Below the pieces are notes generated by a model, which had not been told where the DNA came from, did no database searches, and saw only the letters and a program-made list of their open reading frames with translations. Positions 24,392-32,517 of a DNA stretch of 35,699 nucleotides are shown here, one piece after another (position 1 is the stretch's first letter; each line of letters begins with the position of its first letter). Both the position numbers and the translations under genes were made by a program. This DNA is from Wohlfahrtiimonas larvae (GTDB lineage: Bacteria > Pseudomonadota > Gammaproteobacteria > Cardiobacteriales > Wohlfahrtiimonadaceae): the NCBI RefSeq assembly GCF_002006755.1, contig NZ_MVDO01000074.1, forward strand, positions 1 to 35,699, given 5' to 3'.

Positions 24392-24396
24392 GACTG

Positions 24397-24422
24397 CTCC
24401 TTAGTTATATTGTATATAGGAG
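24397..24422 (-). promoter_or_regulatory. Hairpin sequestering the mgtE Shine-Dalgarno
   Basis: On the minus strand CTCCT (24422-24418) can pair with AGGAG (24401-24397), the mgtE Shine-Dalgarno, across a 16-nt AT-rich loop that can itself pair partly (TATA/TATA). The CTCCT arm starts one base after the stop codon of the 4-codon ORF at 24424-24438. Confidence 0.55.
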
Positions 24423-24423
24423 A

Positions 24424-24438
24424 CTATGGTTTGGACAT
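24424..24438 (-). CDS. Candidate leader mini-ORF, Met-Ser-Lys-Pro-stop
   Basis: ATG TCC AAA CCA TAG on the minus strand, preceded 6 nt by GAGG (24448-24445), a stronger and better spaced Shine-Dalgarno than many genes here. The stop directly follows a proline codon, a context known to slow termination (as in TnaC). A ribosome held at the stop would cover the adjoining CTCCT element and leave the mgtE Shine-Dalgarno free. It encodes no useful protein; its translation would be regulatory. This is inference from position. Confidence 0.45.
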   Translation of the reverse strand: MSKP

Positions 24439-24535
24439 CACCCACCTCTAATATTAATAGATAATAACTTACTTAATATTAGATATAAGTGAAATTGTGA
24501 ATAGATCTTCAGATTGCCTGAAGATAGAAAAATTC

Positions 24536-24592
24536 TCAGGACTTAACTGCTGATCTCATGATCAAAACACAAGGATATGATCGGGTCCTCAT
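24536..24592 (-). CDS. Possible 18-codon upstream ORF in the mgtE leader
   Basis: An ATG at 24592 opens an 18-residue frame (MRTRSYPCVLIMRSAVKS) ending TGA at 24536, inside the outer helices of the leader. The nearest Shine-Dalgarno, GGAG (24609-24606), is 13 nt away, longer than ideal. Its translation would melt both long helices. In E. coli mgtA is controlled by a 17-codon leader peptide, MgtL, but the sequences are not alike. It may be chance. Confidence 0.25.
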   Translation of the reverse strand: MRTRSYPCVLIMRSAVKS

Positions 24593-24626
24593 CCACAGAA
24601 CTTTTCTCCAAATAATAAAAAAACGT

Positions 24627-24656
24627 ATTATACAGACTCATTTCACAATGTAACAA
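24627..24656 (-). promoter_or_regulatory. Predicted sigma-70 promoter of mgtE
   Basis: -35 TTGTTA (24656-24651), an 18-bp spacer and a consensus -10 TATAAT (24632-24627) on the minus strand. No other good promoter is nearer to mgtE. Confidence 0.7.
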
Positions 24657-24733: not shown

Positions 24734-24884
24734 GATAAAATCATTATGATTAAATTAATATCATTCAAGGGTACCTTATGAATAATAAATTGCAACCATT
24801 CGCCCTATCAAAAAGATGATTTTAGCAAAACTCATGAGCAATAAAAAAGGCTTAATAACATTCATTAAGCCTTTTTTACTTTGA
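24734..24884 (+). other. Candidate short plus-strand transcript between mgtE and exbD
   Basis: The 240-nt stretch after the mgtE promoter holds no convincing gene. On the plus strand it has a 13-bp palindrome AATCAT-T-ATGATT (24739-24751), AAGGG followed by a 13-codon ORF (24778-24819), a 22-codon ORF joined to it by ATGA (24816-24884), and a perfect terminator whose stem lies within the second ORF. A small RNA or a decayed gene start are both possible. Confidence 0.25.
24843..24877. terminator. Bidirectional intrinsic terminator after exbD
   Basis: A perfect 14-bp stem: AAAAAAGGCTTAAT (24843-24856) and ATTAAGCCTTTTTT (24864-24877), loop AACATTC. The A-run and T-run make it work in both directions. 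It ends the tonB-exbB-exbD transcript on the minus strand. Confidence 0.92.
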
Positions 24885-24900
24885 TCCCAAAATGGCATCA

Positions 24901-25446
24901 TTAACCTTCTGTCGGCGCAACCACTTGTTGTTCTCCTGCTGAATTTTCAGATATTGGAGCTGTAGCAGTTTCATCACCTGCTGATGAAGCACCGCCTTCA
25001 CCAGGTAGAGTTACAAAACCAATATTCCCCAAACCAGCCTTACTTAATGAAGTAATTGTTTTAGCAACAATTTCATAAGGCACTTTAATATCAACATGAA
25101 ATTGTACCAATGGATTATAATCAGGCCCATTTTTAGCTAGAGCTTCTGATTTCAATGTTGTTAAAGTGTTTAACACTGCTTCATCTGAGTCCATTTTAAC
25201 TTCATTAATATGCACTTCAGAATCACCATTAATCGCAACTAAAATAGGTTTATTCTCCACTTGATCCGGCGTCGTTTTCTCTTTTAAATCGACAGCTTCT
25301 GGTAACTTTAATTGAACAGACTGTGTTACCAATGGTGCTGTAAGAATAAAAATGACCAAAAGTACTAACATGACATCGATCAATGGCACCATATTAATTT
25401 CAGCACGTGCACGAGAACTCGTACCACGTAAACGTCCAAATGCCAT
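24901..25446 (-). CDS. exbD: TonB-system proton channel subunit ExbD, with C-terminal tail
   Basis: A 181-residue inner-membrane protein with one transmembrane helix (MVPLIDVMLVLLVIFILTAPLV, residues 20-41) holding the conserved pore aspartate at 25. A periplasmic domain with VDLKEKTTPDQVENKPILVAIN follows. E. coli ExbD has 141 residues; the extra residues are a C-terminal low-complexity Gly/Ala/Ser/Thr/Glu tail from about 148 (GEGGASSAGDETATAP onwards). The Shine-Dalgarno GGAGC precedes the ATG. It starts 2 nt after exbB. Confidence 0.93.
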   Translation of the reverse strand: MAFGRLRGTSSRARAEINMVPLIDVMLVLLVIFILTAPLVTQSVQLKLPEAVDLKEKTTPDQVENKPILVAINGDSEVHINEVKMDSDEAVLNTLTTLKSEALAKNGPDYNPLVQFHVDIKVPYEIVAKTITSLSKAGLGNIGFVTLPGEGGASSAGDETATAPISENSAGEQQVVAPTEG

Positions 25447-25448
25447 GA

Positions 25449-26180
25449 TTAAGCTCCTTTTGTTTGGCTCTTATCGCAACAATCATTCTTGCAATGCACA
25501 CACTCACCACCTAATAAATTTAATAATTCATAAGCAAATGAATCTAATGCACCAATGGTTACTTGATTACGTCGAATCACCCAGCTATGTGCTAATACCG
25601 CAGGAATAGCAACGGCCAAACCCACACCTGTCATAATCAATGCTTCACCTACAGGGCCTGCAATCTTATCAATTGTACCTGCACCTGTTGAACCAATCTC
25701 AATCAATGCATGATAAATACCATACACTGTACCAAACAATCCAACAAAAGGAGCCGTTGCAGAGATAGCAGCCAAAGCTGTTACACCGTTTTCACAGCGT
25801 AAATTAATCTCATCTAATTTTGTGCTCAAAGCTCGTGTAATCACTTCACCTAATGAACCGCTATCTCTTAATGATCCGCCATGTGCTTTTTTATAACGTT
25901 GTACAGCATGCACTCCTGCATCTGTTAAAATTTCATGATAATTATTAGGCGTATGCTCCATTAAATAACCATCAATATCTTCTACTGACTTGGCATTCCA
26001 AAACATTTTTAAGAATTTTTTAGTATGGCGCTTTTCAGAAAAGCCTTGCAAAGCTTTCAAAAAAATAATGAGCCAAGATACGATAGACATCGTAATTAAA
26101 ATAACAAAGAGTATCTTACTCAACATATCAGCTTGGCCAATAAAGTTTTCAAAGCCCAATCCACTTACTTCTGGTTGCAT
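25449..26180 (-). CDS. exbB: TonB-system proton channel subunit ExbB, with cysteine-rich C-terminus
   Basis: A 243-residue MotA/TolQ/ExbB family protein. Three membrane helices are visible at residues 18-42 (ILFVILITMSIVSWLIIFL), near 130-155 (ALAAISATAPFVGLFGTVYGIYHAL) and near 175-195 (GEALIMTGVGLAVAIPAVLAH). The TAPFVGLFGTVYGI motif carries the conserved proton-path threonine and the helix-breaking glycines. The last 17 residues hold Cys227, His229, Cys230, Cys234 and Cys235 (CVHCKNDCC), which I do not know from E. coli ExbB. AAGGAAAA lies 4 nt before the ATG. It drives TonB with ExbD. Confidence 0.93.
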   Translation of the reverse strand: MQPEVSGLGFENFIGQADMLSKILFVILITMSIVSWLIIFLKALQGFSEKRHTKKFLKMFWNAKSVEDIDGYLMEHTPNNYHEILTDAGVHAVQRYKKAHGGSLRDSGSLGEVITRALSTKLDEINLRCENGVTALAAISATAPFVGLFGTVYGIYHALIEIGSTGAGTIDKIAGPVGEALIMTGVGLAVAIPAVLAHSWVIRRNQVTIGALDSFAYELLNLLGGECVHCKNDCCDKSQTKGA

Positions 26181-26219
26181 GTGTTTTCCTTTTTCACTTA
26201 AATAAACTTATAAATCAAT

Positions 26220-26993
26220 CTAGAATCTCAATTGATATGGCACTCGCACAACAATAGACTGTGCTTTACCATCCACAATGTATGGTTTTAAACGAACCTT
26301 ATGAGCAGCTGTCATTGCTGCTTTATCAATCTGATCATTCCCAGAGGATTTTTCTATCCTGACAGAGACAGCTTTACCTTGTTCATTAATCTTAATTAAT
26401 AAAATAGTTGTCCCACCTGTGCGGCGCATCAATACAGATCTTGGATAATTAGGTGCAGGTTTTGATAAAACAGAGATATCCTGCATAGAAAACACTCGAT
26501 TTTCTACACGTTTAGACTGACGCTTTGGCTGTGGCTTAGCTTCTTGTTTTTTCTTTTGTGGCTTTGGTTTTGGTTGTTCTTTTTTCTTCTCTTGAATTTT
26601 AGGTGCTTCAGGAGCTGGCTGTTTAGTGGTGATAATTTCTTCCTTCGGCTCTTCAATAACAGGCTCTTCAGGCACTTCTTCCACTTTCTCTTCGACAACT
26701 TCCTCTTCTTTAATTTCTTCCTTGATTTCTTCTTTAACTTCTTCCTCAGGCTCTGTAGGTTCTGTTAAAAGCTCTTCATCATCATGCTGATTTGTAATCT
26801 CTGCGGCATCATCAACACCCGCCAAACTTATGTTATGCATGATCATTGTTGAAGGCTCTAGCATAATTTGATGATCAGGCGAACGGCTACCTGCATAAGT
26901 AATACCATAAAGAAGACCGCCATGAAACAAAAAAACGCCCAACATAGCGGTCGCTACTAATGTTTTGCTAGTTTTATAGTGTTGTAACGGCAC
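26220..26993 (-). CDS. tonB: Energy-transducing protein TonB, GTG start
   Basis: A 257-residue inner-membrane-anchored periplasmic protein that transmits ExbBD energy to outer-membrane receptors. One transmembrane segment (residues 13-30, VATAMLGVFLFHGGLLYGI), then an acidic region (EEEVKEEIKEEIKEEEVVEE, near 78-97), a Pro/Lys/Gln-rich region (PKPKPQKKKQEAKPQPKRQ, near 142-160) and a C-terminal TonB domain from about 175 (APNYPRSVLMRRTGGTTILL, SSGNDQIDKAA). The initiator is GTG with AAGGAAAG 4 nt ahead; no ATG is near. It is first in tonB-exbB-exbD. Confidence 0.93.
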   Translation of the reverse strand: MPLQHYKTSKTLVATAMLGVFLFHGGLLYGITYAGSRSPDHQIMLEPSTMIMHNISLAGVDDAAEITNQHDDEELLTEPTEPEEEVKEEIKEEIKEEEVVEEKVEEVPEEPVIEEPKEEIITTKQPAPEAPKIQEKKKEQPKPKPQKKKQEAKPQPKRQSKRVENRVFSMQDISVLSKPAPNYPRSVLMRRTGGTTILLIKINEQGKAVSVRIEKSSGNDQIDKAAMTAAHKVRLKPYIVDGKAQSIVVRVPYQLRF

Positions 26994-32131: not shown

Positions 32132-32168
32132 AAAGCCTTCTTAGATTACTAAGAAGGCTTTCTTGTTT
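32132..32168. terminator. Bidirectional terminator between the phosphatase gene and rnpB
   Basis: A perfect 13-bp stem AAAGCCTTCTTAG (32132-32144) / CTAAGAAGGCTTT (32149-32161), loop ATTA. On the plus strand CTTGTTTT follows; on the minus strand the stem is followed by TGCTTT. It ends the phosphatase transcript and probably rnpB. Confidence 0.85.
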
Positions 32169-32517
32169 TGCGAGTCGATCTATAAGCCGGGTTCTGTCGA
32201 GAATTATCATTCATCTAGGGATACAATCACTCATATCCTCAAGCAACCTACCCGAATACAGTGCGGATCACACTATGCATATTCCTATTTGGTCTTGCTC
32301 CAAGTGGGGTTTACCTCAGCTACATCAAGTCACCTTGTGTACGGTGCGCTCTTACCGCACCTTCTCACCCTTACCGAGACTTTCATCTTTAGGCGGTTTA
32401 ATTTCTTCAGCACTTTCCATCAGCTCACGCTGTCTAGACGTTATCTAGCACTTTGATCCGTGGAGCCCGGACTTTCCTCGGATGATTTCTCACACGCGAT
32501 AATCCAATCAACTCACG
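32165..32517 (-). ncRNA. rnpB: RNase P RNA (M1 RNA)
   Basis: The ribozyme subunit of RNase P, about 350 nt. The 5' conserved core GAGGAAAGTCCGGGCTCC (32479-32462 on the minus strand) and the 3' conserved ACAGAACCCGGCTTA (32197-32183) are the P4-forming regions of every bacterial type A RNA. Between them are GGTGCGGTAAGAGCGCACC, GGAGCAAGACCAAATAGG and GGGTAGGTTGCTTGAG, as in E. coli M1. Helix P1 forms from GTGAGTTGAT (32516-32507) with ATCGACTCGC (32179-32170), 10 bp with G-U pairs, which sets the ends to within a few bases. A promoter lies just ahead. Confidence 0.96.

Follow-up and report, generated by a model that had tools for sequence, protein, structure and literature searches.

Wohlfahrtiimonas larvae carries a gene for a Mg2+ channel of the MgtE class behind a long leader, and the question raised by this locus is whether, and by what means, that leader controls the channel. 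The locus was analysed within a stretch of 35,699 nucleotides, in the following called the window. MgtE is a widespread bacterial class of Mg2+ channels, and its best-known leader control is the M-box riboswitch. An earlier note on this DNA had already named the gene mgtE. This assignment is correct, as the product scores 314.9 bits with TIGR00400 (cut-off 232.75) and carries the domains of the family. It is the single MgtE gene found in the genome. According to profile models, CorA-type genes are also encoded, and the model for P-type Mg2+ ATPases gave no hit above its cut-off in the genome. An EttA orthologue, L31 and Rho are all encoded. The answer that we favour is that this mgtE is controlled by a translation-aborting Mg2+ sensor resembling MgtL and MgtQ, and we put the probability of this reading at roughly 0.57. 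Since the leader holds a conserved ORF with the N-terminus Met-Asp-Glu-Asp-Pro, of the kind known elsewhere for ribosome drop-off at low Mg2+, mgtE is probably controlled like mgtA of E. coli or mgtB of Salmonella.

The features on which this reading is built are collected in the table. Transcription could start at the candidate promoter listed there; the number of promoter-like sites in the leader region was not above chance. In W. populi (G004:C12:32658-32691), a second 34-base copy of the stretch with the -10 box (94% identical), perhaps a duplicated promoter, precedes the mgtE leader by about 330 bp. On the far side, between a TolR/ExbD-like gene and mgtE, an inverted repeat (GGCTTAAT/ATTAAGCC, window 24849-24877) is flanked by A and T runs. 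It is likely a two-way intrinsic terminator, a reading that is consistent with an own promoter for mgtE. The consensus scan for terminators did not list this repeat, and within the mgtE leader the same scan found no intrinsic terminator. Beyond the repeat, TolQ/ExbB-like, TolR/ExbD-like and TonB-family genes stand in tandem (24901-26993, minus strand), the first two scoring under the NCBIfam cut-offs for named TolQ, TolR, ExbB and ExbD. The window also holds a class A RNase P RNA at 32167-32515 on the minus strand (RF00010, 300.9 bits).

Features of the mgtE leader and gene (positions in the window)
Feature	Positions	Strand	Remarks
mgtE, Mg2+ channel/transporter, 468 aa	22985..24391	(-)	TIGR00400 above cut-off; Pfam MgtE_N, CBS and MgtE domains
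mgtE Shine-Dalgarno, AGGAG	24397..24401	(-)	predicted to be paired with CUCCU, probability 0.93 without ribosome
CUCCU anti-Shine-Dalgarno	24418..24422	(-)	present in four species; partner AGGAG, or GGGAG in two
MSKP-stop mini-ORF, AUG-UCC-AAA-CCA-UAG	24424..24438	(-)	as first described; Shine-Dalgarno and stop lost in W. populi
Long AU-rich hairpin H3	24439..24491	(-)	seen in the window and in W. populi, missing from W. chitiniclastica
Hairpin C:D, AUCUUCAG-GCAAU-CUGAAGAU	24505..24525	(-)	8-bp stem, unchanged in four species
Region B, GUCCUGAG, directly 3' of the leader ORF stop	24535..24542	(-)	GUCCUGA in four species; alternative partners by folding
17-codon leader ORF, GUG start, VDEDPIISLCFDHEISS-stop; proposed Mg2+-sensing uORF	24543..24596	(-)	length and start position kept in four species
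Leader ORF Shine-Dalgarno, GGAG 9 nt before GUG	24597..24612	(-)	GGAG in window and W. populi
Candidate sigma-70-like promoter, TTGTTA-18-TATAAT	24627..24656	(-)	10/12 consensus matches; TATAAT kept in four Wohlfahrtiimonas species

The leader ORF reads GUG GAU GAG GAC CCG AUC AUA UCC UUG UGU UUU GAU CAU GAG AUC AGC AGU UAA, and the first residue of its peptide would be formyl-Met if translated. It belongs to the same mgtE leader as the mini-ORF on which the earlier note had centred, 104 nt upstream of it. A short ORF of this kind, preceded by a Shine-Dalgarno sequence and placed upstream of the Mg2+ transporter gene, was found in all four species with a long leader, namely the window, W. populi, W. 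chitiniclastica and sp. G9077. It has exactly 17 codons in 4/4, and its start lies equally far from the -10 box in each. In the case of W. chitiniclastica and G9077, the Shine-Dalgarno sequence is GAGG, 10 nt before an AUG. The peptide is VDEDPIISLCFDHTINS in W. populi and MDDDSIVPIWRSYTTIQ in W. chitiniclastica and G9077, starting with fMet-Asp-Asp-Asp-Ser in W. chitiniclastica, so that residues 2-5 are DEDP or DDDS throughout the four. Overlapping the leader ORF, a +1 frame (MRTRSYPCVLIMRSAVKS, window 24592-24536, minus strand) is likewise open in each of the four, with 18 codons in the window and W. populi and 28 in W. chitiniclastica and G9077; its AUG stands 13 nt from the Shine-Dalgarno sequence and is therefore a less likely start.

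Between the window and W. chitiniclastica, 16/21 nucleotides match in the first seven codons of the leader ORF and 8/30 in the rest, and the C-terminus of the peptide is not conserved. From the window to W. chitiniclastica, GUG becomes AUG with the start kept, GAG becomes GAU at codon 3 with the acid kept, and AUA becomes GUG (Ile to Val). These changes within the first seven codons are consistent with coding. The conservation over four species amounts to two really independent leaders, one of the window and W. populi and one of W. chitiniclastica and G9077. Judged by this comparison of sequences, the leader ORF is real and conserved.

Downstream of the ORF, the leader is rich in pairing options. 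Region B could pair either with the Shine-Dalgarno and start region of the uORF (A) or with UCAGG of C; its GUCCUGA follows the uORF stop directly in the window and W. populi and lies five bases further on in W. chitiniclastica and G9077. Hairpin C:D is without covariation because nothing in it varies. Hairpin H3 was also considered as a mobile or genomic repeat, and no other strong copy was found. In a folding test, ribosome footprints were masked and the leaders of the four species were refolded. With the simulated ribosome at the uORF stop, the probability of C:D was 1.0 in all four species. With the ribosome at the uORF start, the predicted probability of B:C was 0.61 in the window, 0.02 in W. 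populi, 0.98 in W. chitiniclastica and 0.99 in G9077, and with the ribosome on codon 5 it was 0.12 in the window. On account of the B:C probabilities with the ribosome at the start, the simulated folding argues well for a position-dependent RNA switch in the W. chitiniclastica/G9077 branch and weakly in the branch of the window and W. populi.

Closer to the gene, the earlier note had pointed to a CUCCU able to pair with the mgtE Shine-Dalgarno sequence, and this part of it was confirmed: beyond the high pairing probability predicted for the window, the pairing is kept in 4/6 species, with predicted values of 0.88-1.0 without ribosome across the four long-leader species and with one U-G pair where the partner is GGGAG (W. 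chitiniclastica and G9077). In the two Lapin species, the uORF and the anti-Shine-Dalgarno are both missing. With a simulated ribosome on the early uORF codons, the probability of the CUCCU pairing remained at least 0.85. As CUCCU and the mgtE Shine-Dalgarno sequence stay mostly paired in most simulated states, folding does not explain how the uORF would be linked to mgtE.

Altogether, the following mechanism can be proposed. Early acidic residues in the nascent chain are known to destabilise the translating ribosome, more so at low Mg2+, and in E. coli drop-off on the EPDP of MgtL raises mgtA (PMC11282234; PMC11552253). Here, mgtE would be transcribed from its own promoter with a structured leader, some 230 nt long, that contains the 17-codon ORF with its acidic/proline start. 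At ample Mg2+, ribosomes would complete the leader ORF and occupy B just past the stop, and hairpin C:D would form. At low Mg2+, the acidic codons would destabilise the ribosomes, which would drop off prematurely; B would then pair with C or with the Shine-Dalgarno and start region of the uORF, and mgtE expression would rise. The conserved CUCCU would mask the mgtE Shine-Dalgarno sequence and thereby keep basal mgtE translation low. As the output step, Rho-dependent termination is one candidate (as in Salmonella mgtA and corA) and access to the mgtE ribosome site another (as in mgtB). In this scheme, we infer the translation of the leader ORF, the drop-off of ribosomes and the Mg2+ response together with its direction. 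The general idea of the earlier note, Mg2+ control of mgtE through a proline-containing leader peptide, thus remains plausible, with a different ORF (24596-24543) and an aborting logic in place of a pause at termination.

The pause itself was to occur at an MSKP mini-ORF: a ribosome stalled at its Pro-stop would cover CUCCU and free the mgtE Shine-Dalgarno sequence. The letters described are exact on the minus strand, with GAGG (24448-24445), 6 nt, the mini-ORF (24438-24424), U (24423), CUCCU (24422-24418), AGGAG (24401-24397) and the AUG of mgtE (24391-24389), so the geometry is right, with stop and CUCCU one base apart, and the CUCCU pairing is conserved as described above. However, an arrangement of Shine-Dalgarno-AUG-xxx-xxx-CCN-stop at fixed spacing is kept in 0/5 other species. 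In W. populi, whose MgtE is 92% identical, the GAGG has become GATG and the counterpart reads AUG-UCU-AAC-CCA-UGG, the stop TAG having changed to TGG; the frame continues for 11 codons (MSNPWSPAFYN) and ends at a UAA at the mgtE Shine-Dalgarno sequence. At the nearest place, W. chitiniclastica and G9077 have AUG-GUC-UGA with no Shine-Dalgarno sequence and no MSKP counterpart, and the two Lapin MAG species have an unrelated short mgtE leader that holds no such mini-ORF. In addition, the GAGG of the window sits within the 3' arm of the long hairpin (24491-24439). Because it is not conserved among relatives and its GAGG lies in a hairpin arm, the mini-ORF is probably incidental and non-functional as an ORF, and we give stalling at its stop hardly any credence. 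As a chance baseline, the 229-nt leader was shuffled 10,000 times with its dinucleotide composition kept. An AUG mini-ORF of 2-8 codons with a Shine-Dalgarno sequence arose anywhere in 14% of these shuffles and at most 60 nt from the gene in 3.1%, and one ending in Pro-stop in 0.6%, figures that are after the fact and generous to the mini-ORF because its pattern was picked by eye. The same shuffles bear on the thought that the leader is an ordinary one in which a uORF and an anti-Shine-Dalgarno have arisen by chance. In its favour, 41% of the shuffles had a Shine-Dalgarno-preceded uORF of 5-40 codons and 2.8% a CUCCU ahead of the Shine-Dalgarno sequence; moreover, the long leader is dispensed with in two species of the genus. 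Yet the acidic start is rare, as a Shine-Dalgarno-preceded uORF with at least three D/E/P at residues 2-5 arose in 0.35% of the shuffles and one with four in 0/10,000, and the conservation over four species stands at a neutral divergence at which the window shares 48% of the four-fold degenerate sites of mgtE with W. populi and 27% with W. chitiniclastica. Chance is thus a highly improbable account of this leader.

A more serious competitor is a structured RNA that binds a protein or, as a riboswitch, a metal, and in which the RNA structure is what is conserved and the 17-codon ORF is incidental. Over 140 nt, promoter to hairpin inclusive, the window and W. populi are 92% identical, far above the four-fold sites, hairpin C:D is invariant, and the start region of the uORF participates in pairing, so that conservation of the N-terminal part of the leader ORF could in part serve the RNA. 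On the other hand, no Rfam family matches the leader, the M-box (RF00380) giving no match at its gathering threshold nor up to E = 10, and the fold energies of the part from uORF to hairpin are just mildly lower than those of shuffles (z -1.6 to -2.6). Across the divergent leaders, the Shine-Dalgarno sequence, the start codon type, the length of 17 codons and the acidic codon 3 are kept, and we consider a structured RNA with an incidental ORF unlikely, though by no means negligible. Alternatively, the leader ORF could be translated and regulatory and sense another signal, such as EttA and the energy state, charged tRNA or another metal, or it could act through the whole peptide. Acidic N-termini indeed respond to EttA too (PMC11282234), and leader ORFs of Salmonella mgtCBR sense ATP and proline tRNA (PMC8092293). 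Against this, the regulated gene encodes a Mg2+ transporter, the single Pro codon, replaced by Ser in W. chitiniclastica, disfavours sensing of proline tRNA, and the non-conserved C-terminus speaks against the whole peptide. A signal other than Mg2+ is therefore improbable in our view, and an aborting Mg2+ sensor remains the reading that we prefer.

The 18-base core RTGGATGANGACNCGATC of the leader ORF was found with 0 mismatches in the four mgtE leaders only, among 57 genomes searched. At the corA genes of the genus, neither an acidic uORF nor a leader resembling that of mgtE was found. In 89 other gammaproteobacterial mgtE leaders, acidic uORFs were not enriched (2/61 Shine-Dalgarno-preceded uORFs, compared to 3/70 on the reverse strand), so the acidic uORF belongs to this genus as far as sampled. 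Related genomes hold further acidic cores, one of them MDEDPI in a Lapin MAG; these were rejected, as those examined sit inside longer reading frames. In the MgtE tree, the Lapin pair is placed nearer to the window than W. chitiniclastica is, with moderate support (82/78), and by this placement a loss of the leader in the Lapin pair is the simpler reading.

Should the preferred reading be true, the ribosome itself would sense Mg2+ for transporters of an unrelated family, and would do so in another lineage. Nature would also provide two N-termini, DEDP and DDDS, whose drop-off could be compared. The chances seem evenly balanced that Mg2+ sensing by drop-off on acidic codons, known for enterobacterial P-type Mg2+ pumps, arose separately or was retained in Wohlfahrtiimonas for an MgtE channel; Mg2+ sensing by nascent peptides would then be a principle that recurs and is not peculiar to mgtL and mgtQ. 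A literature search covering few subscription journals turned up no account of such a leader peptide at mgtE.

The leader of mgtE can finally be set beside the known systems. Like mgtL, the ORF in the mgtA leader of E. coli and Salmonella, it places a short ORF with an acidic/proline start before the gene of a Mg2+ importer. MgtL has 17 residues, a length equal to that of the leader ORF here. The mgtA leader is likewise structured, with mutually exclusive stems and a stem able to hide the Shine-Dalgarno sequence of the uORF (PMC11552253). In contrast, the gene here is mgtE, of an unrelated transporter family, and the peptides are alike at the acidic N-terminus only. The M-box (ykoK) riboswitch is comparable as a cis-acting mgtE leader thought to respond to Mg2+ (PMC12810186), and differs in that it has no match in the window. 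For gammaproteobacteria, the literature searched yielded a single structured mgtE leader, the so-called mgtE motif, a candidate riboswitch that includes the Shine-Dalgarno sequence and AUG; the accessible part of its account reports it from Thioalkalivibrio only and describes no leader ORF (PMC11109978). The leader ORF of corA, corL, also stands before the gene of a Mg2+ channel and has alternative stems (PMC11552253), to which those predicted here may be compared, but it is reported with a single conserved proline, its start is not described as acidic, and it belongs to another gene family. In the case of mgtQ, which precedes mgtB in the Salmonella mgtCBRU operon, the ORF lies between operon genes and its region 3 is the anti-Shine-Dalgarno, whereas in the mgtE leader the anti-Shine-Dalgarno has a hairpin of its own, which folding does not connect with the uORF. 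The likeness with mgtQ lies in the acidic codons near the start, in an upstream anti-Shine-Dalgarno able to hide the transporter Shine-Dalgarno sequence, and in alternative stem-loops, which are predicted here (1:2/3:4 versus 2:3 in mgtQ). In Salmonella, these 8 codons with Asp2 and Glu5 promote the translation of mgtB, whose ribosome site is hidden or freed by alternative stems (PMC8092293).
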